Below are positions 825 to 38,086 of a DNA stretch of 38,909 nucleotides, one piece after another; the stretch's first letter is position 1; the number at the start of each line of letters is the position of its first letter. Made by a program: the position numbers and the translations under genes. Origin of the DNA: an uncultured Mucilaginibacter sp. (GTDB lineage: Bacteria; Bacteroidota; Bacteroidia; Sphingobacteriales; Sphingobacteriaceae); the NCBI RefSeq assembly GCF_937859865.1, contig NZ_CALMAT010000139.1:1-38909 (forward strand), read 5' to 3'. The notes under the pieces were generated by a model. The model ran no database searches. It was not told the DNA's origin and saw nothing but the letters and a program-made list of their open reading frames with translations.

Positions 825-1100
825 GTTCTTTTGTCTTGATACAAAAGAACCAACGAAATCAAGCATTTCGGATCGCCTCCGGGCGGCATTCCTCCCCACG
901 CTCCTGGGCGCATACCTTGCAAGTTTCCCTTTCTTGCCGCCAACTGTGTTTGTTGGATGCTTCTTTTATCGGCTATTTTTTGTCCGCCGTGCAGATCGAA
1001 GCGTCAGGTCTGCGCCCAGGTGCGTGGGGCTGAACGGGTGCGCGGACGAGCGATCAGCCGTTCTTGATTTTTTGGTTCTTTTTCATCAAGGAAAAAGAAC
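825..1100. mobile_element. MITE-like palindromic repeat element, about 276 bp, non-coding
   Basis: The 470-base gap between the genes at 699 and 1173 holds this element. Its ends are imperfect inverted repeats of about 38 bases (825-862 against 1062-1100), and each end is itself a hairpin: a perfect 10-bp stem 825-834/841-850 with a 6-base loop, and 1075-1084/1091-1100 with a 6-base loop. Inside is a second inverted repeat, 894-912 against 1011-1029, matching at 18 of 19 positions. No plausible protein is encoded. The structure suggests a non-autonomous transposable or REP-like element; no target-site duplication could be assigned. A reversed KRSI motif lies within it at 957-979. Confidence 0.65.
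957..979 (-). repeat. KRSI motif, form A, inside the MITE-like element
   Basis: Reverse-strand copy (ATGCTTCTTTTATCGGC on the plus strand) between the two internal arms of the 825-1100 element. Confidence 0.6.
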
Positions 1101-1754: not shown

Positions 1755-2239
1755 ACGAAATAGAAGAACATCTTTGGAATTATATAGATGGTTTTTGTAC
1801 CGAAGATGAACGAAAAACTATCGAAACTTTAATTGAAAATAACGCCAATTACCGCAATAAATACGCTGAATTAAAAGCTTTCGAAGCAAATATGCCGGCA
1901 CTTGATCTGGAAGAACCATCCATGGGTTTCACCTTTAAAGTAATGGAAAACATCCGGGCAGAACATGCGCGTGTACCTTTAAAAACGCGTATCAATACCA
2001 GTATTGTCCGCGCAATCGGTGCTTTTTTTATCTGCACAATTTTGGTGTTGCTGGGTTTTGTTTTTGTAAACGTGGATTGGTCTGCGCCGTCGCCAGTTCA
2101 TCTGCCCGAAATCAAAATCCCGCCGGTAACAAACTATTTAAACCCGGTTGTAATTAAAGGATTTTTGTTTTTTGATGTGGTTTTAGGAATGTTTTTTTTG
2201 GATTATTATTTCAGAAAGTTTTTCATCCGGCAGAAATAA
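1751..2239 (+). CDS. Putative membrane anti-sigma factor
   Basis: A 162-residue protein overlapping the sigma gene by 4 bases. The N-terminal 60 residues resemble the sigma-binding helices of anti-sigma factors (a W-x-Y-I-D-G start and acidic helices) but lack the H-x-x-x-C-x-x-C zinc motif of the ZAS class. Two hydrophobic segments follow, near residues 85-108 and 132-152, with a short proline-rich external loop between them. Role is inferred from coupling: it should hold the sigma factor at the membrane until a cell-envelope signal releases it. No FecR-type periplasmic domain is visible. Confidence 0.65.
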   Translation: MNEIEEHLWNYIDGFCTEDERKTIETLIENNANYRNKYAELKAFEANMPALDLEEPSMGFTFKVMENIRAEHARVPLKTRINTSIVRAIGAFFICTILVLLGFVFVNVDWSAPSPVHLPEIKIPPVTNYLNPVVIKGFLFFDVVLGMFFLDYYFRKFFIRQK

Positions 2240-3963: not shown

Positions 3964-6426
3964 CTAATTGTTATTTTTTGGTTTGCTGATTAAGTTGATA
4001 AATAAACGGTATGCGCCTGGCACACCGGCAGGCAATTCCCGAAAAAACACCAGCGAGGTGTAAACAAAACGGCCTCTGCCATAATCGGCAACTAATAATG
4101 AGCCTTTGTTGGGTTCTTCGTTCGGGTCGTTCATTGCTAAAACAGCGCGGTATTTCGGGTCAATATCCGTAGCAAAATAAATGCCGCGTTCCTGTACCCA
4201 GCCTTTAAAATCCTGGCTGGTAATTTTGTTGGGATAATTTAAAACCGGGTCATTCGGGTCGAGCAGCGTTACCGGCGCATTTTCATCCGTAACACGAACG
4301 TTTACAACCCGGAACGGATAGGGCCCGATCTGGCTGGTTACCAAATTTGCATTGGTGTTGTACTGCACCAGCAAATTGCCGCCGTTTTTTACGTATTCCA
4401 GCAGTTTCGGTTCTTCCACCGTTAAGCGGTCATTGATGTTGAAGGCGCGGACACCTATAATAATGGCATCAAAATTCGCCAGGTTTCCGTTCAGAATTTC
4501 ATTTTCTGATAAAGTGGTTACTTGGTAGCCAACCTGGCGCAAAGCTTCCGGCACCAAGTCTCCGGCACCGGGCAAATAGCCGATCCTTTTGCCGTTTACT
4601 TTTAAATCTACCTTAACCAATTTGGCCTGGGCAGGCGGAAAGTAAGTGATGTCTGGGATATGCTCATACATAATTTGATGAATGCTTTGTGTAAAAGTTT
4701 TGCCGTTCACCTGCGTAATTGCTTGTATGGTATCCGTTTCGTTTTTGCCGATGGCAGAAGAAGTAACCGAGAAAACGGCCGTCCACTCGTCGCCCAATTT
4801 TTTGCCGGTAAAAGAAGCATTGGCCGGTGTAATTTTCCAACTCGCAGGCGCTTTCAAACTTACCGAACCGTTGCTGTTGGTAAAGCTTTTCAGTTTAACC
4901 ACCATTTGTTTAGGCTGATTGTTGCTAAAGATATACACCTGCTGGTCTAAATTAGCGGTAACCGGCGGCGTAATTTCTAAAGGCTGGTAAACTTCGCCAC
5001 GAACAGGGCTAACGTATTTGTACATCAATTGCCTTTGCAGGGTTAGCAAATGGCCGTAAATTATAAACTGCCATTTTACCGTAACCGGATCAGGGTTTTC
5101 GGGATAACCAACCAATTCTTGGTTTGCAACCGGATAGCTTTCGTGGATTTGCGCGCCATCCAGCCAGTAAGGCTGCGTTATTTTTTTGGCATCAGTTTTA
5201 CTATCTAAACTAAGTATTTGGTTGGCCGGCAACAATGTGCTGAATGTACTTTTTTGATCGCCTGCCTCAATACCAACCAGCTTAATATTGCTGCCCGAAC
5301 GGTTTATTACCTGGTTTTGGATGCTGATGCTATCGCCAAGGGCATAAGTCGGGCTAAGGGCATAACTTTCCAGCCACAATCCCGCACAAGCCGGTATCAG
5401 TAAATTCAGTTCTTTTATTTTTTGTGTCCTCCAATAACCATCGGTCAGTTTTTGTACCGAGGCATAAATATCCATCAGCAGCGGCAAAGATTTTGTGGGT
5501 TCGGCCGGGCTAAAACTTTTAAGCAGGTCATTAACGCGGATGTTAATTGCATCGCCGCCCACCACCCTTTTCCAGGTCGTGTTGATGCCATCCATCAAAT
5601 CCGTACGCGGTGCATCGCCCAAAATCGTTTTAAAAAACTCGTAGGAACTGCCGCGTTGCTTAGCCGTACCAAAACCCTGGCTTTTATGGTTGGAACGGCT
5701 ATCGGCAGCAATCTCGCCATAACCTTTTCCCAGCAAAGTATTGTAAACGCCAACATCAATTTTAAATTGGTCTGGCCTTGTGGTATCGTTTCCGCCAAAA
5801 TTAAACGTGTTCCACAACAAGCGTTTGGCTTGCCAGGGCTGCACAAATTGTAACTGTTCCGGGAAACGTTTCGGGTCGGCAGCAGCGGTAAAAGCTTCTT
5901 GTGCCAAAATAGCTGATGCGGTATGGTGGCCGTGGCCGCCTTCGCCCGTTGTTGGGAAACGGCAAATAATTACATCCGGCCGAAACTTCCGGATCACCCA
6001 AACCACATCGCCTAAAACCTTTTCTTTGTCCCAGATGCGCAGCGTTTCTTCCGGCCCCTTAGAAAAACCAAAATCTTTGGCGCGGGTAAAAAACTGTTCG
6101 GCACCATCAATGCGCCGGGCGGCCAGCAGTTCCTGCGTCCTGATCAAGCCCAACAATTCGCCTTGTTCGTTGCCGATTAAATTTTGGCCGCCATCGCCCC
6201 TGGTTAAAGAGAGGTAACCCGTCCGGTAATGTTTTTCTTGCGCCAGGTAAGCCAGCAGGCGCGTGTTTTCGTCATCCGGGTGAGCGGCAACGTAAAGCAC
6301 ACTTCCCAAAACAGGGAGTTTTTTAAGTTCCTGTTCGATGGTAACACGATCGGCAGGCGGGGCGGTTTGCGCGAAAACAGGTTTGATACAATTAAAAAAA
6401 ACCAGCAGGAAATAGAAGCGTTTCAT
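3964..6426 (-). CDS. Secreted PIG-L/LmbE family deacetylase, multidomain
   Basis: An 820-residue protein with a signal peptide (residues 1-19, ending V-F-A). The PIG-L domain occupies roughly 35-300: A-H-P-D-D-E at 48-53 and G-H-G-H-H-T-A-S near 164-171 supply the zinc ligands and catalytic acid of LmbE N-deacetylases. Such enzymes remove acetyl groups from N-acetylglucosamine-type sugars. A middle region looks like beta-sandwich modules (about 390-600), and the C-terminal 200 residues (D-A-I-I-I-G-V-R-A-F-N onward) resemble a glutamine-amidotransferase-like fold of ThuA/DUF4350 type. It probably works on glycans outside the inner membrane; the substrate is unknown. A KRSI motif at 4801-4820 encodes N-A-S-F-T-G-K on this strand. 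Confidence 0.85.
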   Translation of the reverse strand: MKRFYFLLVFFNCIKPVFAQTAPPADRVTIEQELKKLPVLGSVLYVAAHPDDENTRLLAYLAQEKHYRTGYLSLTRGDGGQNLIGNEQGELLGLIRTQELLAARRIDGAEQFFTRAKDFGFSKGPEETLRIWDKEKVLGDVVWVIRKFRPDVIICRFPTTGEGGHGHHTASAILAQEAFTAAADPKRFPEQLQFVQPWQAKRLLWNTFNFGGNDTTRPDQFKIDVGVYNTLLGKGYGEIAADSRSNHKSQGFGTAKQRGSSYEFFKTILGDAPRTDLMDGINTTWKRVVGGDAINIRVNDLLKSFSPAEPTKSLPLLMDIYASVQKLTDGYWRTQKIKELNLLIPACAGLWLESYALSPTYALGDSISIQNQVINRSGSNIKLVGIEAGDQKSTFSTLLPANQILSLDSKTDAKKITQPYWLDGAQIHESYPVANQELVGYPENPDPVTVKWQFIIYGHLLTLQRQLMYKYVSPVRGEVYQPLEITPPVTANLDQQVYIFSNNQPKQMVVKLKSFTNSNGSVSLKAPASWKITPANASFTGKKLGDEWTAVFSVTSSAIGKNETDTIQAITQVNGKTFTQSIHQIMYEHIPDITYFPPAQAKLVKVDLKVNGKRIGYLPGAGDLVPEALRQVGYQVTTLSENEILNGNLANFDAIIIGVRAFNINDRLTVEEPKLLEYVKNGGNLLVQYNTNANLVTSQIGPYPFRVVNVRVTDENAPVTLLDPNDPVLNYPNKITSQDFKGWVQERGIYFATDIDPKYRAVLAMNDPNEEPNKGSLLVADYGRGRFVYTSLVFFRELPAGVPGAYRLFINLISKPKNNN
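4801..4820 (+). repeat. KRSI motif, form A, inside the PIG-L gene
   Basis: TTTGCCGGTAAAAGAAGCAT matches the core completely within the beta-sandwich region of the antisense gene. Confidence 0.6.
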
Positions 6427-6514
6427 GGATGCAGATAAAAGCGTGAAGATAGCTAAAAAAGATAAGCTGTATTTGCTCGCATTTATGTTAAAAACAATTT
6501 TTGCCGGGCAACAA

Positions 6515-6537
6515 TTTTATGCCGATAAAAGAAGCAT
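6515..6537 (+). repeat. KRSI motif, form A
   Basis: Complete copy (TTTTATG then CCGATAAAAGAAGCAT) in the divergent spacer between the PIG-L gene and tetR. The rest of this 217-base spacer holds the tetR promoter and operator. Confidence 0.75.
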
Positions 6538-9736: not shown

Positions 9737-11287
9737 ATGGCCGAAACAGGGTTTAAAAAATGGATCATCACTATAACGGTAATCACAGCCTCCTTGCTGG
9801 AGCTCATTGATACCACGATTGTAAACGTGTCTTTGCCAACCATTCAGGGAAACTTAGGCGCAACGCTTGAAGACATTGCCTGGATTACAACTGGTTATGC
9901 AGTTGCCAACGTAATTATCCTGCCAATGTCGGGTTGGCTGGGCAGTTTCTTCGGGCGAAAAAATTACTTTCTTGCTTCTATTATTTTATTTACCATCGCA
10001 TCATTTTTGTGCGGTAATGCTACCGGTTTAGGTGAGTTGGTAGGGTTTAGGATATTACAGGGTATTGCCGGTGGGGGGTTAATCTCAACGGCACAGGCAA
10101 TTTTATTAGAAACCTGGCCACGCGAACAAGTAGGCACAGCCACTGCTTTGTTTGGTTTTGGCGCTGTGGTTGGGCCAACGGTTGGCCCAACTATCGGTGG
10201 TTATTTAACCGAACATTTTTCGTGGCCGTGGATATTTTATGTAAACATACCCGTAGGTATCTTCGCTGCTTTTTTTACCTATACTTTTGTTAAGGCCACG
10301 CCAAAAACAGGCAGGGGCAAACCAATTGACTGGTGGGGGATTGCTTTGCTGGCAACTGCTATCGGAAGTTTACAAGTGATCTTAGAAAAAGGCGAATCGG
10401 AAGACTGGTTTGCAAAAACCTATATTCTTATATTAACCATTACTGCTATCTTGGGCTTGCTGCTGTTTATCTGGCGTGAGTTAAGTACAGAATTTCCCAT
10501 TGTCAATTTTAGCATCATGCGGCACAGAAGTTTTTCTGTCGGTATGATTACTTCCTTTATCCTCGGGTTTGGCTTGTACGGCACGGTATTCGTTTTCCCG
10601 ATATTTTGCCAGAGTTTGCTGGGCTTTTCGTCTGAAGATACCGGTAAGTTATTGTTTCCCGGCGGCTTGTTCACTTTAGCCATGATGCCTTTGGTAGGCC
10701 AAATGCTTAACAAAGGCATTCCGGCGCAAATAATGGCTACTGTAGGCATGGTATTATTCTTTGTATTTACGCATATGCTGGGCGATTCTACTTTAGAAAG
10801 TGGTAAAGGGGACTTCTTTTGGCCACTTGCCATCCGGGGTATTGGTATGGCACTGCTTTTTGTGCCCTTAACTACATTGGCTATTGCTGATTTAAAAGGA
10901 CCGGAAATAGGCCAGGGAACAGGGCTAAACAACATGATGCGGCAATTGGGCGGTTCATTCGGGATTGCGGCATTAACTACCATTATCCATATTCGCCAGG
11001 GCGTTCACCGCAACAATTTGCTCGTTAGCATTAACCCTTATAACCCGGCTTTTGTACAACGTTACAATATGTATGTACAAGCGTTTATAGCCAAAGGAAA
11101 ATCAATGCTGGATGCCTCGCACATGGCCTATGGGGCAATGGAAGGGACGGTAATCAGGCAGTCGCTGTTGCTGACCTACAACGATGCGTATTGGCTTTCG
11201 GGCATCATCATGCTGTGTTCAATCCCACTATTGTACCTGCAGCCATTCCGCCGTAAAAATGCGCAGATGCCGGTAGATGCACATTAA
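9737..11287 (+). CDS. DHA2 family MFS drug exporter (EmrB/QacA type)
   Basis: A 516-residue integral membrane protein with the 14-helix DHA2 pattern. Family motifs are present: L-I-D-T-T-I-V-N-V-S-L-P-T-I (motif D1, helix 1), G-W-L-G-S-F-F-G-R-K (motif A), and F-G-F-G-A-V-V-G-P-T-V-G-P-T-I-G-G (motif C of antiporters). It is a proton-coupled exporter working with the two preceding proteins as a tripartite pump, probably for hydrophobic drugs or weak acids. It is the last gene of the operon, followed by a strong terminator. Confidence 0.92.
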   Translation: MAETGFKKWIITITVITASLLELIDTTIVNVSLPTIQGNLGATLEDIAWITTGYAVANVIILPMSGWLGSFFGRKNYFLASIILFTIASFLCGNATGLGELVGFRILQGIAGGGLISTAQAILLETWPREQVGTATALFGFGAVVGPTVGPTIGGYLTEHFSWPWIFYVNIPVGIFAAFFTYTFVKATPKTGRGKPIDWWGIALLATAIGSLQVILEKGESEDWFAKTYILILTITAILGLLLFIWRELSTEFPIVNFSIMRHRSFSVGMITSFILGFGLYGTVFVFPIFCQSLLGFSSEDTGKLLFPGGLFTLAMMPLVGQMLNKGIPAQIMATVGMVLFFVFTHMLGDSTLESGKGDFFWPLAIRGIGMALLFVPLTTLAIADLKGPEIGQGTGLNNMMRQLGGSFGIAALTTIIHIRQGVHRNNLLVSINPYNPAFVQRYNMYVQAFIAKGKSMLDASHMAYGAMEGTVIRQSLLLTYNDAYWLSGIIMLCSIPLLYLQPFRRKNAQMPVDAH

Positions 11288-11652: not shown

Positions 11653-11723
11653 ATTTTATGCCGGTAAAAGAAGCATTGCCACTTCTCTCGCACAAAGCCA
11701 TACTTCTTTTACCGGCATAAAAT
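11653..11723. terminator. Inverted pair of KRSI motifs, hairpin at the 3' end of the FAD oxidoreductase gene
   Basis: Two complete form-A copies face each other: 11653-11676 (plus) and 11700-11723 (minus), with a 23-base loop. The arms are 24 bases and nearly perfectly complementary. The right arm abuts the TGA stop (11724-11726) of the minus-strand gene, so the structure is placed to terminate it. Confidence 0.7.
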
Positions 11724-13556
11724 TCAGTTCAAAAACTTGCCCGTTAAATCTAGCCTGCGGTCAAACGGTTTCAGGTAAACATCTGCCAATGCGGCAAATT
11801 CCCTTCGCGTAATTGGCCGGTTCAAATCGAAAACAGAATTTAAATGCAGTTTCGGTTTCCAGTCGTTTTTAATTTGAAGCTGAAACGTTTTGGCATCGCG
11901 CAAATCCAGTTCCTCAATAAAAGAAAGCATATTGCCGATGGTAAACAGTTCGGCAGGTTTATTTTTGTTGAACCAAAGGAAAGCGCGTGTATAAATCTCG
12001 TTCAAAACCGGTTTAATTTCGGCAGTTTTCACAACAGAATCAGGCAAAAAGAAAACAGGCGCAGAACCACCAACAGGTTTTTGCACGCCTTGCAGCAACC
12101 CGGTTACGCCCAGTTTTTGGATGGCAATAAACTGCGGGTCCGTTTGCTTCACATCCATAAAAGGCATCAAATAACCGTGATGGCTTAATATTTCATTTTG
12201 AATGAGGCGAAGTTTTATATTTTTAGTGGTGGTTTTAAAAAAAGAACAGTAGGCAGCAATCGTTCCAATTCCTTGCCCAACCGTCATCTGCACCGAAGGG
12301 TACATCGTGCTGGCGTTGACCAAATGCGTAACCGACATGGCTTTTTCGGCCACCAAAAAATTATCAAAATCTTTTACGATAACTGCACCGGCCGGAAAAC
12401 TGTAAGCCGGAAAAGCGCCATAATTGGTTTCGGGCGCATTTTGCAGCGGTAAAAAGTGTTGGCCGGGCGAAGCATCGCCAATACCAATTGAAGTGCGGTA
12501 CAACTTAGAAGAACGGTTGTAAGGCGTATAAATATCGTCTAAAACCATTTTGATCGCGCCTTTTGTACGCCTCGCTTCGCGGATATAAGGAATATAAGGC
12601 AAATGATCGGGCGTGTTAAACTCTAAATTATCAACGCTTAGGTTTTTTAAACCCATTTGCGTTTGCAGAAAATAAACCAGGCCAAGTGTTTTTAACCGTG
12701 CTTTTTGATAAACAGCTTTTATTTGTGTGCCGGTAAAATCATTGGTTTGAATGGGATAATCGTTGATGCCTTTTACTTTCAGCATAAATTTATCATTGGG
12801 CAAACGGCCGCTTTCCAGCATTTGCTTCATGTTTTTTCCTTTCAGGGAAGTGTACAATGTTTCGTCGTAACCTTCGGGCTTGGCAATAGTTCGATCGGCA
12901 GCGCGGCCATAATCTTTTAAAATAGCAATCCAGGTGAGATTTTGGATAAGGGGCAATGCTTCTTTTACCGCCCATTTTTCGCCGGATTGCGCTTCACTTT
13001 CAAAACCAGCCTCAAACGGAACGCCGAGTTTGGCAGCTACATCACCGGTTTCGGTCCCGTCAACTACTACATCTGCTCTGATCGTCGTGTTTTCCCCGTT
13101 GATTTTGGCCGAAACTTCGTAACCCGTTCCGTCCTTTTTTATACCGGTAAAAGAAGCACTCAAATGAACACTGAGGTTTTTAACCGTATCCGTGATTTTT
13201 TTGAGGATGGCCGCGCCAACAGCGGGTTCAAAACGAAGCGTGGCATTGGTTGTAGTATCAAAACCGGGCGTGTTTTTATAATATTCTTTCAACCGTTTCC
13301 TGAATTCGCCCCAAACCCCCGAATTAAAACTGCGGTTGCCTTCCACCACACACATGCCGCCCGAAGTTAAACTGCCGCCAAGCCAAGGGCCTGCTTCTAA
13401 AATGATCGTTTTTACGTTGCTCCGCGCACTTTGTATCCCGGCCGCTGTGCCTGCTGCGCCGCCGCCGATAACCAAAACACCGGTTTTCTGGCTCTGCGCA
13501 AAAGCAGTTGGGTTAAAAAATATAACTGTAAATAAAAAAATACAAATTTTTTTCAT
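11724..13556 (-). CDS. Secreted FAD-dependent oxidoreductase (FAD_oxidored family)
   Basis: I choose the ATG at 13556 (610 residues), which starts a signal peptide (M-K-K-I-C-I-F-L-F, cleavage after A-F-A); an ATG 18 bases upstream adds non-signal residues. Next comes the dinucleotide-binding motif G-V-L-V-I-G-G-G-A-A-G-T-A-A-G, an E at the end of strand 2, and G-G-S-L-T-S-G-G-M, typical of FAD-dependent oxidoreductases often annotated as xanthan-lyase-like. V-V-V-D-G-T-E-T-G-D is the second FAD contact. The substrate is unknown; export suggests a polysaccharide or other external compound. It is divergent from the amidase genes. Two KRSI motifs lie inside (12956-12975 and 13141-13158). Confidence 0.85.
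   Translation of the reverse strand: MKKICIFLFTVIFFNPTAFAQSQKTGVLVIGGGAAGTAAGIQSARSNVKTIILEAGPWLGGSLTSGGMCVVEGNRSFNSGVWGEFRKRLKEYYKNTPGFDTTTNATLRFEPAVGAAILKKITDTVKNLSVHLSASFTGIKKDGTGYEVSAKINGENTTIRADVVVDGTETGDVAAKLGVPFEAGFESEAQSGEKWAVKEALPLIQNLTWIAILKDYGRAADRTIAKPEGYDETLYTSLKGKNMKQMLESGRLPNDKFMLKVKGINDYPIQTNDFTGTQIKAVYQKARLKTLGLVYFLQTQMGLKNLSVDNLEFNTPDHLPYIPYIREARRTKGAIKMVLDDIYTPYNRSSKLYRTSIGIGDASPGQHFLPLQNAPETNYGAFPAYSFPAGAVIVKDFDNFLVAEKAMSVTHLVNASTMYPSVQMTVGQGIGTIAAYCSFFKTTTKNIKLRLIQNEILSHHGYLMPFMDVKQTDPQFIAIQKLGVTGLLQGVQKPVGGSAPVFFLPDSVVKTAEIKPVLNEIYTRAFLWFNKNKPAELFTIGNMLSFIEELDLRDAKTFQLQIKNDWKPKLHLNSVFDLNRPITRREFAALADVYLKPFDRRLDLTGKFLN
12956..12975 (-). repeat. KRSI motif, form A, inside the FAD oxidoreductase gene
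   Basis: ATGCTTCTTTTACCGCCCAT on the plus strand; the gene reads it as W-A-V-K-E-A-L. Confidence 0.55.
13141..13158 (+). repeat. KRSI motif, form A, inside the FAD oxidoreductase gene
   Basis: ATACCGGTAAAAGAAGCA after a T run; the antisense gene reads it as A-S-F-T-G-I. Confidence 0.55.
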
Positions 13557-13609
13557 TGGGCCGAAATTAACCATTTACAAAACGCTATTTTTAGGACAAA
13601 CGGTTATAC

Positions 13610-15286
13610 ATGACAAATTTTTCTACCAAACGCTTTTACGCTATTGCCGCGGCCTGCAGTTTAAGTTTTAGTTTAGGCTCTTTCGTTTCCAAAACTTTGG
13701 TTGACAGCCCGGTTACGGTTTCGGTAATCAAAGCAGCAGAACAGCTTTCCGGCCTAAGTTTTTCTGCCGCGCAGGAAGATTCTTTGCTGAACGGTTCCAA
13801 CGATCACTTAAAAGCTTACGAAGAACTCCGAAAATTAAACCTTAAAAACAGTATCGTCCCGGCTTTAAATTTTAACCCAATTCCGGTTGGCTTCGTTTAT
13901 CCTGATAAAACAGGCCAATTTTTACTCGATAAAAGAAGCATTGCCACTTTACCTGCAGATAAAAACGAATTGGCTTTTTATACCATTCGGCAATTGGCAG
14001 ATTTGATCCGCAACAAAAAAATATCATCGGTAGAATTGACTAAATTCTTCCTGGATCGCCTTAAAAAACTCAACCCAAAACTGTTGGCGGTCGTTTCTTA
14101 TACCGATGACCTCGCCTTAAAACAAGCTGCACAAGCCGATGCAGAAATTGCAGCCGGACATTACCGCGGTGTTTTGCACGGGATTCCTTTTGCGGTAAAA
14201 GACCTTTTATCGGCCAAAAACTACAAAACCACTTTTGGCGCGGCACCTTATAAAGACCAGGTTTTTGATGTGGATGCCACGGTTGTAAAAAAACTGGAAG
14301 ATGCTGGAGCGGTTTTAATTGCCAAGTTATCGCTGGGCGAACTGGCTATGGACGACACCTGGTTTGGCGGCCGGACGAACAATCCCTGGGATTTGACACG
14401 CGGTTCGGGCGGTTCTTCGGCTGGCCCCGGTGCGGCGGTTTCTGCCGGTTGCGTGCCTTTTGCCATCGGTTCCGAAACCTGGGGCTCTATCGTTGAGCCT
14501 TCCAACAATTGCGGCGATACCGGTTTGCGCCCTTCTTTTGGCCGCGTAAGTAAATATGGTGCGATGGCTTTAAGCTGGAGTATGGACAAATTGGGGCCGA
14601 TGGCGCGGACGGTAGAAGATTGCGCCATCGTTTTTAACGCTATTCAAGGGAAAGACCCGCAGGATTTAAGCACGATTGCTGCGCCTTTTAATTATAATGA
14701 GAAGCAAAATTCTTTAAAAGGCTGGAAGATTGGTTATTTAAAGGCTGATTTTCAATCCAAATACCCAAACCGGCACAACGATTCTTTAACGTTGGTGAAG
14801 ATGAAGGAATTGGGCGCAACTTTAATTCCGATAGAACTGCCAAAACTTCCTTTTAATTCCATGAATTTTATTTTGGATGCCGAAGCCGGTGCCGCTTTCC
14901 AGGAACTGGTGTTGACGCACCGAAGCGATTTATTGCAACGGCAGGAAAAAGCGGCTTGGCCAAATACTTTTCGTACGGCGCAATTTATTCCGGCAGTTGA
15001 ATATATCCAAGCCAACCGCGTACGCACTTTATTGGTGCAAAACTGGTACGAAAAACTAAAAGGGCTGGACTTGTACCTTTCGCCTTCTTACAGCGATAAT
15101 TTACTGCTCACCAACCTCACCGGAAACCCTTGCGTGGTTTTGCCAAATGGTTTTACCACAAAAGGGTTGCCCACCAGCATCACTTTTATGGGACAGCTTT
15201 CTGGCGAAGGAAAAACGCTGGAAGCAGCAAGAATTTACCAGAACGCAACTGGTTTTCAATTAAAACACCCTGCTTTAAACTTTTAA
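13610..15286 (+). CDS. Amidase-signature family hydrolase, paralogue 1
   Basis: A 558-residue protein with an N-terminal hydrophobic export signal or anchor (residues 10-27). The amidase-signature Ser-cisSer-Lys triad is intact: Lys197 in G-I-P-F-A-V-K-D-L-L, Ser269/270 in G-S-G-G-S-S-A-G-P, and nucleophile Ser293 in S-E-T-W-G-S-I. The family hydrolyses C-N bonds of amides; the substrate is unknown. About 120 residues precede the usual domain start, shared with the next gene. Residues 107-111 are D-K-R-S-I, encoded by a KRSI motif. It begins 53 bases from the divergent FAD oxidoreductase start. Confidence 0.9.
   Translation: MTNFSTKRFYAIAAACSLSFSLGSFVSKTLVDSPVTVSVIKAAEQLSGLSFSAAQEDSLLNGSNDHLKAYEELRKLNLKNSIVPALNFNPIPVGFVYPDKTGQFLLDKRSIATLPADKNELAFYTIRQLADLIRNKKISSVELTKFFLDRLKKLNPKLLAVVSYTDDLALKQAAQADAEIAAGHYRGVLHGIPFAVKDLLSAKNYKTTFGAAPYKDQVFDVDATVVKKLEDAGAVLIAKLSLGELAMDDTWFGGRTNNPWDLTRGSGGSSAGPGAAVSAGCVPFAIGSETWGSIVEPSNNCGDTGLRPSFGRVSKYGAMALSWSMDKLGPMARTVEDCAIVFNAIQGKDPQDLSTIAAPFNYNEKQNSLKGWKIGYLKADFQSKYPNRHNDSLTLVKMKELGATLIPIELPKLPFNSMNFILDAEAGAAFQELVLTHRSDLLQRQEKAAWPNTFRTAQFIPAVEYIQANRVRTLLVQNWYEKLKGLDLYLSPSYSDNLLLTNLTGNPCVVLPNGFTTKGLPTSITFMGQLSGEGKTLEAARIYQNATGFQLKHPALNF
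13923..13942 (+). repeat. KRSI motif, form A, in frame in amidase 1
   Basis: CGATAAAAGAAGCAT read in frame as D-K-R-S-I, immediately before the conserved helix L-A-F-Y-T-I-R-Q-L. Confidence 0.65.
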
Positions 15287-15292
15287 TTACTG

Positions 15293-15316
15293 ATGCTTCT
15301 TTTACCATATAAATTT
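15293..15316 (-). repeat. KRSI motif, form A
   Basis: ATGCTTCTTTTACCATATAA then ATTT, 7 bases after the stop of amidase 1. Confidence 0.65.
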
Positions 15317-15321
15317 TCGGA

Positions 15322-15423
15322 CACACCCCTAACCCCTCTCGAGAGGGGAAGTATAGCGGCTACTTTTCTATCGATGGAAATATCTGCGCCCGGTTTCCCC
15401 TCTTGAGAGGGGTTAGGGGTGTG
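15322..15423. repeat. Bacteroidota palindromic repeat (TPNPSQEG-type), 102 bp
   Basis: Arms 15322-15350 and 15395-15423 are 29 bases and match at 28 positions when one is reversed and complemented. Each arm also contains its own palindrome (CCCCTCTCGAGAGGGG on the left). Translation of the minus strand gives the well-known spurious peptide T-P-N-P-S-Q-E-G. The element sits alone between the two amidase paralogues and does not encode a protein. It could act as a bidirectional transcription barrier. Confidence 0.85.
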
Positions 15424-15454
15424 TTCTTTCTCGATTATTAATTCAATATAAACT

Positions 15455-17128
15455 ATGAAAATTTTTACCAAAAAAATCCTAACCATCACTTCTTTATGCG
15501 GCTTCAGCTTTGTTTGCGGCGCTTTTATCACCCAAAAATTAGAAAACAGCCCGATTACAGTTGCTGTGGTAAACGAAGCCGAAAAACTAATCGGCCTAAA
15601 TTTTTCCCCGGCTCAGGCAGATTCGATGTTGAATGGTTTAAGCGAACATCGCAAAGCCTACGAAGAATTGCGCAAACTGCATCTTCCAAACAATGTTGTG
15701 CCGGCTTTAAACTTCAACCCAATTCCGGTTGGCTTCGTTTATCCGGATAAAACAGACCAATTTTTACTCGATAAAAGAAGCATGACAACTTTGCCTTCGG
15801 ATAGAAACGAACTGGCTTTTTATACGATCCGGCAGTTGGCAGATTTGATTCGAACCAAAAAAATAACTTCGGTAGAATTGACTAAGTTTTTTTTAGAGCG
15901 GTTGAAAAAGTACGATCCGAAACTTTTGTTTGTGGTAAATTACACTGAAGAACTCGCCTTAAAACAAGCCGCACAAGCCGATGCCGAAATAAAAGCAGGA
16001 CATTATAAAGGTGTTTTGCACGGCATTCCTTTTGGCGTAAAAGATTTGCTGGCCGTAAAAGGTTATAAAACAACCTGGGGATCAGTACCATACAAAAACC
16101 AGCAATTGGAGGTTGATGCAACCGTTGTAAAAAAACTGGAAGCAGCAGGCGCGGTTTTGGTGGCTAAATTAACTTTGGGCGAGCTGGCCAATGGCGATGT
16201 TTGGTTTGGCGGCCGCACCAATAATCCCTGGGATATTACGCGTGGTTCCAGCGGTTCTTCGGCGGGCCCGGCTTCGGCTGTTGCTGCCGGTTGCTTGCCT
16301 TTTGCCATCGGTTCCGAAACGTTGGGTTCTATCGTTTCGCCTTCCACAGAATGCGGTGATACGGGCTTGCGCCCTTCTTTCGGTCGCGTTAGCAAAACCG
16401 GTGCGATGGCTTTAAGCTGGACGATGGACAAGCTCGGTCCGATTGCCAGAAGCGTTGAAGATTGTGCCATCGTTTTTAACGCCATCCAAGGAACTGACCC
16501 GCAGGATTTAAGCACGATTGCTGCGTCTTTTAAATATGATGGCAACCAGAAATCGTTAAAAGGCTGGAAGATTGGTTATGTGAAAGCAGATTTCGACCGC
16601 AACCGTTTCAACAAAACCTCTGATTCATCAACCTTGGTTAAACTAAAAGAATTGGGTGCCGAATTGGTGCTGATAGAATACCCAAAACTGCCTTTTGGTG
16701 CTTTAAGGTTTATTTTGGAAACAGAAGCTGGCGCAGCTTTCCAGGAACTGGTTTTAAACCACCAAGACGATCTGATGGTGCGCCAGGGAAAAGGCGGCTG
16801 GCCAAATATTTTCCGTACCGCGCAGTTTGTTCCGGCGGTTGAATATATCCAGGCTAACCGTGTCCGCACCATGGTGATCCAGGATTGGTACGAAAAATTA
16901 AAAGGCTTGGATATGTACATTACGCCTTCTTTTTCGGGTAACTTAGTGCTCACCAATTTAACCGGAAACCCTTGCGTAGTTTTGCCAAACGGATTTAACA
17001 AACAAGGCCGGCCGGTAAGCATTACTTTTATGGGACAATTATTTGGCGAAGGGAAAATTCTGGAAGCCGCCAAAATTTATCAAGAAGCTACGGATTTCAA
17101 CAAAAAACACCCGACATTAAATTTTTAG
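15455..17128 (+). CDS. Amidase-signature family hydrolase, paralogue 2
   Basis: A 557-residue protein colinear with paralogue 1 over its whole length, including the signal or anchor and the roughly 120-residue N-terminal extension, so the pair arose by tandem duplication. The triad is intact: Lys196, Ser268/269 in G-S-S-G-S-S-A-G-P, nucleophile Ser292 in S-E-T-L-G-S-I. The W to L change beside the nucleophile and changes in V-S-P-S-T-E-C-G suggest a different substrate preference (inference). It keeps the in-frame D-K-R-S-M motif at residues 106-110. Its TAG stop lies inside a diverged KRSI motif. Confidence 0.9.
   Translation: MKIFTKKILTITSLCGFSFVCGAFITQKLENSPITVAVVNEAEKLIGLNFSPAQADSMLNGLSEHRKAYEELRKLHLPNNVVPALNFNPIPVGFVYPDKTDQFLLDKRSMTTLPSDRNELAFYTIRQLADLIRTKKITSVELTKFFLERLKKYDPKLLFVVNYTEELALKQAAQADAEIKAGHYKGVLHGIPFGVKDLLAVKGYKTTWGSVPYKNQQLEVDATVVKKLEAAGAVLVAKLTLGELANGDVWFGGRTNNPWDITRGSSGSSAGPASAVAAGCLPFAIGSETLGSIVSPSTECGDTGLRPSFGRVSKTGAMALSWTMDKLGPIARSVEDCAIVFNAIQGTDPQDLSTIAASFKYDGNQKSLKGWKIGYVKADFDRNRFNKTSDSSTLVKLKELGAELVLIEYPKLPFGALRFILETEAGAAFQELVLNHQDDLMVRQGKGGWPNIFRTAQFVPAVEYIQANRVRTMVIQDWYEKLKGLDMYITPSFSGNLVLTNLTGNPCVVLPNGFNKQGRPVSITFMGQLFGEGKILEAAKIYQEATDFNKKHPTLNF
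15765..15783 (+). repeat. KRSI motif, form A, in frame in amidase 2
   Basis: TACTCGATAAAAGAAGCAT read as D-K-R-S-M, at the position equivalent to the copy in amidase 1. Confidence 0.6.
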
Positions 17129-17719: not shown

Positions 17720-18379
17720 ATGACCTACAACTTTGATGAACATAAACATCGTTATGCAGTTTGGACTGCTGCACGAGCTGTTCAACGATCATTTGCGAAA
17801 ACATCCGATATAAAAAATGCTATAAACTGTACAGGACTAAGGCAATTTAGTGAATCAGATATATCTATTACACAAGACACTTATGATACAAAGCAAAAGG
17901 AATGGTGCAATTTAATAATTGATCATTTTAGTAAACTTGATAAATCTCCAAAAAGCCCTTCCGATCCACCAGAAAAGTACAAGTGCTCTTATGGCCGTGC
18001 ATCAAAAATTATTGCCATCTATTTAAAAACCTCTATTATACTGCCCAGTAAAGGACAAACAAAAAATTGTTCAGTGATTCATCCGCCAATTGATCGTATT
18101 TTACTTGAATGTTTAGCTGATAAAAAGAATATTAAGGAGCTATTAGAAAAGCCTTGGACACAATTCGAGGAAAAAGATTATTGGAGAATAGTAAGGATTA
18201 TCAGAGTAAATGATTTAACTTTCGATTGGACATTGGAAGAATACTGGCATTCAAACCAGAAACCAAAAGGCTGGCCAGAAGCTTTTCAAGAAATGGCAAA
18301 AAACGGTGATGATGAATTGCTAATCCCTGATATTTTTGAAGATGAAGATTTTAGTGATTGGATTTTGAAAGAAGTTTAA
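17720..18379 (+). CDS. Hypothetical protein, possibly accessory or defence-associated
   Basis: A 219-residue soluble protein without signal or membrane segment. I do not recognise a named domain. The N-terminus (H-K-H-R-Y-A-V-W-T-A-A-R-A-V-Q-R) looks like a helix seen in uncharacterised proteins of accessory loci; a middle stretch has C-S-Y-G-R-A-S-K-I-I-A-I-Y-L-K-T, and the C-terminus is very acidic (D-I-F-E-D-E-D-F-S-D-W). It is visibly more AT-rich than the DinB gene before it and adjoins a toxin-antitoxin pair, suggesting later acquisition. Confidence 0.55.
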   Translation: MTYNFDEHKHRYAVWTAARAVQRSFAKTSDIKNAINCTGLRQFSESDISITQDTYDTKQKEWCNLIIDHFSKLDKSPKSPSDPPEKYKCSYGRASKIIAIYLKTSIILPSKGQTKNCSVIHPPIDRILLECLADKKNIKELLEKPWTQFEEKDYWRIVRIIRVNDLTFDWTLEEYWHSNQKPKGWPEAFQEMAKNGDDELLIPDIFEDEDFSDWILKEV

Positions 18380-18403
18380 ATACTTCTTTTATCAACCAAA
18401 ATT
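18380..18403 (-). repeat. KRSI motif, form A
   Basis: ATACTTCTTTTATCAACC then AAAATT, starting one base after the stop of the preceding gene. Confidence 0.6.
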
Positions 18404-20926: not shown

Positions 20927-20962
20927 AAAGAAGCATCCCCGGAAATACAGGGATGCTTCTTT
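20927..20962 (-). terminator. Terminator of the OmpA-like gene built from paired KRSI motif ends
   Basis: AAAGAAGCATCCC (20927-20939) pairs perfectly over 13 bp with GGGATGCTTCTTT (20950-20962), 10-base loop. The full form-A copy continues to 20977. It lies 24 bases past the OmpA stop on the minus strand, and the T run of its 3' side supports termination. Confidence 0.8.
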
Positions 20963-20977
20963 TATCGTATAAAAATT
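20953..20977 (-). repeat. KRSI motif, form A, right arm of the terminator
   Basis: ATGCTTCTTTTATCGTAT then AAAAATT; this arm carries the whole motif, the other arm only the GAAGCAT end. Confidence 0.7.
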
Positions 20978-21812: not shown

Positions 21813-22640
21813 ATGAACGGTGGCGGTAAAGGTAAAAAAATCGGTATTTTAGGTTGCGGCTGGCTGGGTTTTCCGTTGGCCAAAAATTTAGTGGAAAAAG
21901 GTTGGCAGGTGCATGGCTCTACCACCACACCCCAAAAACTGCAACTTTTGCAGGAAGCGGGCATCAAACCGTTTCTGCTTGCTTTGGATGCAAATTCTGA
22001 TCTTTCCAATTCCACTTTTTTTGATGCTGATGTGCTTTTTATCAACGTTCCGCCATCGCGCAAGTTGGCGCAAAGCGGTTATCTGGACAAGATGAAAACT
22101 TTGCTGGCGGCTATCCAAACTTCGTCCATTAAAAAAGTAATTTTTGTCAGTTCCACTTCGGTTTATGGTGATGTTTGCCGTGAAGTTACCGAAGCAGACG
22201 AGCCGGACAACCCATCCGAATTGCTACAGGCCGAAATGCTGTTTTTATCGGCAAAAAATTTGCAAACCACGGTCATCCGTTTTGGCGGGCTGTTTGGGCC
22301 GGATCGAAATCCGGGCAGGTTTTTTAGGGATAAAAACAGTATTCCAAACGGTTTGGTTCCGGTAAACTTAATCCATTTAAACGATTGTTTGAGTTTGATT
22401 GAAGCCGTTTTAGATCAGCAAAAATTCTTCGGCGTTTACAATGCCGTTGCACCTTCGCATCCAACAAAACAGGAATTTTACGGGAAAGCAATTTTAAGAT
22501 CAGGTTTTGGCGCGCCGGAATTTGTGGCAGAAAAAACAGTATGGAAGATTATCAATGCTGAAAAAATTGTTCAGGATTTAAATTACCGATTTCAATATCC
22601 GGATTTGCTTTCTTGTCTTGACGATTCGGCTGCTTTTTAA
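21813..22640 (+). CDS. NAD(P)-dependent epimerase/dehydratase-like protein (YeeZ type)
   Basis: A 275-residue extended SDR-like protein. The Rossmann motif G-I-L-G-C-G-W-L-G lies at residues 11-19; V-I-F-V-S-S-T-S-V-Y-G-D near 110-121 includes the Ser and Tyr positions of SDR enzymes, though the usual Y-x-x-x-K is weak (E-M-L-F). It resembles the YeeZ/YbjT branch of sugar-nucleotide-epimerase-like proteins of unknown substrate. The in-frame F-R-D-K-N-S-I is encoded by a form-B KRSI motif. It converges with the minus-strand gene with a 4-base overlap of stops. Confidence 0.8.
   Translation: MNGGGKGKKIGILGCGWLGFPLAKNLVEKGWQVHGSTTTPQKLQLLQEAGIKPFLLALDANSDLSNSTFFDADVLFINVPPSRKLAQSGYLDKMKTLLAAIQTSSIKKVIFVSSTSVYGDVCREVTEADEPDNPSELLQAEMLFLSAKNLQTTVIRFGGLFGPDRNPGRFFRDKNSIPNGLVPVNLIHLNDCLSLIEAVLDQQKFFGVYNAVAPSHPTKQEFYGKAILRSGFGAPEFVAEKTVWKIINAEKIVQDLNYRFQYPDLLSCLDDSAAF
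22321..22343 (+). repeat. KRSI motif, form B, in frame in the epimerase-like gene
   Basis: TTTTTAGGGATAAAAACAGT then ATT, read as D-K-N-S-I. Confidence 0.55.
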
Positions 22641-25345: not shown

Positions 25346-25369
25346 ATGCTTCTTTTATCGGCCTAAAAT
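25346..25369 (-). repeat. KRSI motif, form A, carrying the TonB receptor stop codon
   Basis: Complete copy; its TTTTAG end supplies the TAG stop (25363-25365) of the receptor gene, and its other end lies 8 bases from the PnuT start. Confidence 0.75.
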
Positions 25370-28789: not shown

Positions 28790-28813
28790 ATACTTCTTTT
28801 ACCGGTATAAAAT
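28790..28813 (-). repeat. KRSI motif, form A
   Basis: Complete copy (ATACTTCTTTTACCGG then TATAAAAT), second of two in this 297-base gap. The gap holds nothing else recognisable before the hydrolase start. Confidence 0.7.
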
Positions 28814-33750: not shown

Positions 33751-33773
33751 ATGCTTCTTTTATCGCCCAAAAA
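33751..33773 (-). repeat. KRSI motif, form A
   Basis: ATGCTTCTTTTATCGCCC then AAAAA, starting 7 bases after the FKBP stop, the same spacing as after amidase 1. Confidence 0.7.
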
Positions 33774-33777
33774 TCTA

Positions 33778-36765: not shown

Positions 36766-36791
36766 ATAAAATATGCCGGTAAAAGAAGCAT
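36766..36791 (+). repeat. KRSI motif, form A, overlapping the SUMT start codon
   Basis: Full core CCGGTAAAAGAAGCAT at 36776-36791; its final AT forms the first two bases of the ATG at 36790, and its AAAAGAAG could double as a weak ribosome site. Confidence 0.75.
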
Positions 36792-38062: not shown

Positions 38063-38086
38063 ATACTTCTTTTACCGGCCTAAAAT
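38063..38086 (-). repeat. KRSI motif, form A
   Basis: Complete copy (ATACTTCTTTTACCGG then CCTAAAAT), 10 bases downstream of the GT39 stop on the minus strand. Confidence 0.7.

Follow-up and report, generated by a model that had tools for sequence, protein, structure and literature searches.

A facing pair at the end of a Mucilaginibacter oxidoreductase gene probably consists of two copies of a genus-wide motif with the behaviour of a DNA uptake sequence

We describe an inverted pair at positions 11653-11723 of a Mucilaginibacter sequence and propose that its two facing copies probably belong to a recognition motif found throughout the genus and similar in behaviour to DNA uptake sequences. 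The window, by which we mean the whole stretch of DNA analysed, is 38,909 nucleotides long. The analysis covered about 0.76 Mb of the 3.98 Mb of the window's genome, together with smaller parts of two relatives, and the genes referred to below are mechanical ORF calls.

A sequence-only reading of the window had described two complete 24-nt copies facing each other across a 23-nt gap, and we found this geometry to be correct, with 23 of the 24 bases complementary. The left copy lies at 11653-11676 on the minus strand (plus-strand letters ATTTTATGCCGGTAAAAGAAGCAT; minus-strand reading ATGCTTCTTTTACCGGCATAAAAT) and, at 34 bits, is the best in the window; the loop, placed by sequence and fold, occupies the 23 nt at 11677-11699; and the right copy, ATACTTCTTTTACCGGCATAAAAT, lies at 11700-11723 on the plus strand. 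That reading had also set the inner edge of the pair against a TGA, which requires correction: it is the right-hand outer edge that meets the stop codon. The adjoining gene (11724-13574, minus strand, 616 aa; stop TGA at 11726-11724) does encode the FAD-dependent oxidoreductase previously assigned to it, as it matches PF12831 (FAD_oxidored) with an E value of 2.4e-65, and two further motif copies lie within it, at 12956-12979 (plus) and 13136-13159 (minus). Because a gene for an MFS transporter (9737-11287) lies upstream on the plus strand and converges on the pair, the junction with the oxidoreductase gene is convergent. RNA from either strand of the pair folds into a single long hairpin, with minimum free energies of -29.9 and -37.2 kcal/mol for the two strands; this stability is far beyond chance (z about -8.7) and was reached by none of 200 shuffles. 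A search for known RNA families gave no Rfam match in the window.

In a weight matrix from 764 kb of the window's genome, the motif reads ATRCTKYTTTTAYC-N5-WAAAWT, and a weaker YRGTG follows beyond the T-ending A/T tract, so that the whole motif spans about 30 bp. Sites of at least 13 bits number 981 in these 764 kb, versus 4 in a reversed control. Two other genomes of the genus, those of Mucilaginibacter arboris HMF7410 and the lichen MAG Lichen_MAGs_lobaria3, yield the same matrix; the densities in the three genomes are 1.26, 1.19 and 0.95 sites per kb, with almost none in the reversed controls. Exact 14-mers (RTRCTTCTTTTAYC) occur 1921, 1707 and 1141 times in these three genomes, and no genome among 148 others, from 24 further genera of the family, has more than 5. 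When about 85,000 species genomes, a collection that may omit the window's own genome, were scanned with a 23-mer, only M. arboris and the lichen MAG gave matches. Small 20-kb samples from 13 other genera of the family contained no comparable k-mer that might represent a dialect of the motif, and viral contigs gave 20 single matches, a chance-like level. All bearers of the motif belong to the M. arboris group, a small set of bacteria from soil and lichens. Within the motif, positions 5-6 are TC in 655 and GT in 184 of 964 copies in the window's genome (G000), and mixed forms are far rarer; the two dinucleotides swap as a unit in all three genomes, orthologous copies included, a pattern suggesting that the shape of the duplex is recognized or that there are two alternative contacts.

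Motif copies are equally frequent on the two strands, a balance that speaks against polar chromosome signals such as Chi and KOPS. They are found both in and between genes, at 0.67 and 4.1 per kb, respectively, with 446 of the 964 copies inside genes. In 96 coding copies, third codon positions show a between-species mismatch of 0.096 (core), 0.148 (A/T tract), 0.302 (spacer) and 0.390 (flanks); the third positions of the core are thus kept fourfold better than those of the flanks (p 3e-41). These data are direct evidence that the DNA word itself is under constraint or drive, independent of reading frame.

The pair had earlier been judged unlikely to result from two independent insertions, and we likewise found no support for insertion. 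In alignments with a related species, 113 of 180 copies stand opposite a motif without any gap, and none of the 180 stands opposite a gap of at least 15 bp. Protein alignments with outgroups from other genera contain no indel in 69 of 83 motif stretches, the gaps that do appear being mostly where identity is low, and residues shift to suit the motif (for example, EALKIAKKL to NASFTDQKL). Judged from these alignments, motif copies arise via substitution and not insertion; the absence of large gaps and the mostly indel-free outgroup proteins largely rule out single copies as insertions or as products of mobile elements.

The same evidence bears on the possibility that the motif forms the end of a small MITE- or REPIN-like mobile element, with pairs representing whole elements and singles their remnants. 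What speaks for such an origin is a family of 92-96 bp intergenic repeats with a diverging motif at both ends and a common interior (for example, L040:832-925, L040:5689-5780 and L048:13309-13402). Its 41 copies, in clusters of 29, 7 and 5, are nearly all from the window's genome (764 kb), however, whereas the motif is common to three genomes; the family is MITE- or REPIN-like and perhaps a selfish repeat exploiting the motif. About half of the motif copies are genic, no 24-bp gaps are seen, and Y1 transposases are few and occur in motif-free genomes as well. Moreover, the 11653-11723 pair is facing rather than diverging, and the sequence between its cores is not common to the pair of the lichen MAG (G002). 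We therefore regard a mobile-element origin as very improbable. A REPIN/RAYT system in particular is ruled out by the number of genic copies and by the single Y1 transposase of G000, which is found in motif-free genomes too.

Two large elements, of 78 and 71 kb, are the basis for our finding that the motif is depleted in mobile DNA. The first, a 78-kb contig of M. arboris (G001 C8, L188-L191), carries 4 copies (0.05 per kb) and encodes TraG, TraM, a coupling protein and a relaxase; it is probably a plasmid or conjugative element. A reverse transcriptase, a DnaE-like polymerase and an IMS-family protein are also encoded on this contig. The second, a 71-kb island in the lichen MAG (G002 C1:49.1-120.5 kb, L082-L086), contains 2 weak copies and is flanked by DNA of normal motif density; it encodes an integrase, a serine recombinase/resolvase, a TrwC relaxase and a type I restriction specificity subunit. 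The island likewise encodes a Piwi/Argonaute protein and a KAP NTPase. Outside mobile elements, copies are spaced more evenly than random at 2-5 kb (variance/mean 0.4-0.7, with 0.63 to 0.73 in two large stretches), and this holds even though close pairs alone would act in the opposite direction.

Even spacing and absence from recently acquired DNA could also be explained if the motif were the site of a genus-specific chromosomal protein (nucleoid-associated, or acting in segregation or in replication/repair), with pairs binding a dimer. Conservation at the DNA level on both strands, the long composite motif and the preferred gaps of both facing and diverging pairs would fit such a protein as well. 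Nevertheless, the motif shows no strand polarity, contrary to Chi- or KOPS-like signals; no such protein was identified here; and the upkeep of thousands of redundant sites at the level of third positions is hard to account for by binding, but natural under uptake-driven replacement. We consider a chromosomal-protein site the main rival explanation, possible though rather unlikely.

The position of the pair at a stop codon proved to be common among motif copies. Across 682 ORFs, 104 sites have their centre 10-20 bp downstream of the stop, many of them overlapping the final A of the stop codon, and their orientation relative to the gene is 1:1. Because this peak of single copies contains both orientations equally, much of the placement follows from tolerance of the motif at such sites. 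That the 11653-11723 pair abuts a stop codon is an instance of this genome-wide habit of the motif and reflects no special event. Within the window, copies lie 6 bp after the stop codons of ORFs ending at 15286 and 33744 (15293-15316 and 33751-33774, both plus), and another begins right after that of an ORF ending at 18379 (18380-18403, plus). Intergenic copies are located at 957-980 (plus, single), 6514-6537 (minus, single), 28790-28813 (plus; its TTTTACCGGTATAAAA half is near-palindromic by itself) and 38063-38086 (plus), with one more between two genes at 36768-36791 (minus) and two in short intergenic gaps at 20953-20976 and 25346-25369 (both plus). Single copies fall within ORFs at 2019-2042 (plus) and 4797-4820 (minus), and the coding region at 22236-22342 holds two, plus then minus.

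Two other features were seen in this part of the sequence. Closely following a motif copy is a 30-nt inverted repeat of a different kind (15321-15350 and 15395-15424, 97% complementary, 44 nt apart, ACACACCCCTAACCCCTCTCGAGAGGGGAA). The tandem paralogues at 13610-15286 and 15455-17128, with a DNA identity of about 75%, both retain a motif copy at the matching relative place, 13918 and 15760.

The sequence-only reading had proposed that the pair was selected as a terminator, and this proposal has some support. Among adjacent copies 5-30 bp apart in the three genomes pooled, 45 of 96 are in facing order versus 24 expected under random orientation, a 1.9-fold excess (p 4.5e-6; 27/54, 10/23 and 8/19 by genome). 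Pairing extends past the motif itself into the first bases of the loop (z 3.7 relative to mixed controls; 38 pairs, gap 12-30). Of 31 facing pairs in intergenic DNA, 20 are at most 30 bp from a stop. With genes taken as ORFs of at least 100 codons, facing intergenic pairs number 14 where genes converge (34 kb), 13 where they are codirectional (103 kb) and 4 where they diverge (44 kb); the density of single copies ranks these three settings in the same way, and location alone is therefore no proof of selection for termination.

A comparison with relatives also bears on the proposal. In the lichen MAG, the orthologous FAD oxidoreductase gene likewise has a facing pair (C1:339327-339389, gap 15) right at its stop codon. 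The motif cores of this pair align with those of the window, but the loop and spacers do not, and its stem is lengthened with other bases (GAAGCATCTG / CAGATGCTTC). By its letters, the lichen-MAG pair diverged independently, and it is the best single evidence for a terminator role. In M. arboris, the local gene order is different, and a facing pair is found about 0.8 kb past the MFS gene, after an additional ORF.

Other observations weigh against the proposal. The peak at stops is neutral in orientation, no U-rich tract lies directly past the full stem of the pair, and a standard terminator scan reported no terminator there. CUUCUUUUA sits within the 3' arm, towards its outer end and past a shorter inner stem, and the U-tract is short and partly within the stem. 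Uptake sequences often occur as inverted pairs acting as terminators (PMC12616744), and the pair plausibly serves, in addition, as a weak bidirectional terminator made of two motif copies in the manner described for paired USS and DUS. We also considered whether the motif might act primarily at the RNA level, with pairs and post-stop singles serving as terminators or 3'-end processing sites. The strong post-stop peak, the facing excess, the stem extension and the strong fold are the observations that favour a role in RNA, but copies after stops are oriented 1:1, 446 of the 964 lie in genes, and a single copy has no hairpin partner. A terminator function is hence at most secondary; the 1:1 orientation and the genic copies rule against RNA as the primary level of function, which we consider extremely improbable.

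The link to paired uptake sequences drawn in the sequence-only reading is borne out by the genomic behaviour of the motif. Copies occur about once per kb, on both strands and in coding and non-coding DNA; they are conserved at the DNA level, originate by point mutation, are depleted in acquired elements and are evenly spaced. We infer that the motif would be recognized during uptake by a reader protein, and that the pair would terminate transcription. In the mechanism we propose, a surface or outer-membrane competence receptor would prefer double-stranded DNA carrying the motif; its target would be the 14-bp core, the 5-bp spacer, the A/T tract about one helical turn on and then YRGTG. Bound DNA would cross the outer membrane and pass to ComEC and DprA for recombination. 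Motif-bearing alleles would then replace the cell's own alleles more often than the reverse, and this drive, together with selection, would make and keep copies by point mutation where proteins and promoters tolerate them, chiefly after stops. Imports borne by conjugation would arrive without the motif. At gene ends with two facing copies, RNA of either strand would read A-tract, stem, loop, stem and U-rich tract, and such a fold could serve as a secondary bidirectional terminator for convergent genes.

ComEC and DprA are present in the genus, as is a triple-HHH protein of 306 aa that is similar in kind to an essential Riemerella protein. In three genomes of the genus, we found no PF00437 match over the cut-off for a type IV pilus ATPase of the PilB/PilT type and no PF07963 match for a type IV pilin; a DUF5689 surface protein was not found in the genus. 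Since neither PilB/PilT-type ATPases nor pilins exceed the cut-off, the known receptors (ComP and the proposed ComN) cannot operate, and uptake, if it occurs, would need different machinery. Immediately ahead of comEC, the genus has a gene encoding a protein of about 680 aa (L164:8824-12996 and L163:9717-13888, both minus). This protein has a marginal N-terminal HHH match, ends in ...RVQVRYRF and, by eye, looks like an outer-membrane barrel; homologues of its gene and of comEC are adjacent in 5 of the 5 other family genera compared. It is a candidate for a Bacteroidota outer-membrane DNA receptor, channel or pore. On balance, we lean slightly towards the motif being a DNA uptake sequence of a third kind, which would have evolved independently and be the first in Bacteroidota, with a receptor other than a type IV pilin that is possibly part of the comEC operon to which the barrel-like protein belongs. 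Our search of the open literature found no report of natural transformation in Mucilaginibacter.

If this interpretation is true, a third case, from a phylum whose transformation involves no known type IV pilus, would show that self-recognition in uptake evolved repeatedly and with different machinery. The motif would also help to find the outer-membrane receptor for DNA in Bacteroidota, since a change in that receptor is expected to coincide with the origin of the motif at the root of the genus. Constructs furnished with the motif might render Mucilaginibacter genetically tractable.

Neisseria and Haemophilus use self-recognition tags in DNA uptake. To our knowledge, DNA uptake sequences have so far been described only in Neisseriaceae and Pasteurellaceae, and none in Bacteroidota. 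The USS of Haemophilus influenzae and other Pasteurellaceae resembles the Mucilaginibacter motif in occurring about once per kb on both strands, in having a core with A/T-rich segments, in lying in and between genes with fairly even spacing, and in forming inverted pairs proposed as terminators (USS features from PMC7811141, PMC2346458 and PMC12616744). Unlike the USS, the motif has an unrelated sequence and a Bacteroidota host with no type IV pilus genes detected, and its role in uptake is putative. The DUS of Neisseriaceae likewise occurs in thousands of copies, is confined to related species and forms inverted pairs as terminators; its distribution has served to spot integrative elements (PMC7371117). 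However, the DUS is 10-12 nt long and is read by the minor pilin ComP, whereas the Mucilaginibacter motif is about 30 nt long and no pilin was found. The known cores are CTG in DUS and GCGG in USS (PMC12616744), and the core ATRCTKYTTTTAYC matches neither. We class the motif as uptake-like by its behaviour and not as a member of DUS or USS, from which it differs in its core sequence and in the lack of a detectable pilus. We know of no uptake motif in the transformation of Riemerella anatipestifer (Flavobacteriaceae). This species, whose eight reported essential genes include no type IV pilus homologues (PMC8459023), shares with the genus its place in Bacteroidota, ComEC, DprA and an HHH protein (PMC8459023), but needs the DUF5689 surface protein. 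Finally, REP/REPIN and MITE sequences resemble the motif as abundant short repeats, often in inverted pairs, and the 92-96 bp repeat is similar to them; in contrast to these families, half of the motif copies are genic, and the copies are born by substitution and conserved base by base.
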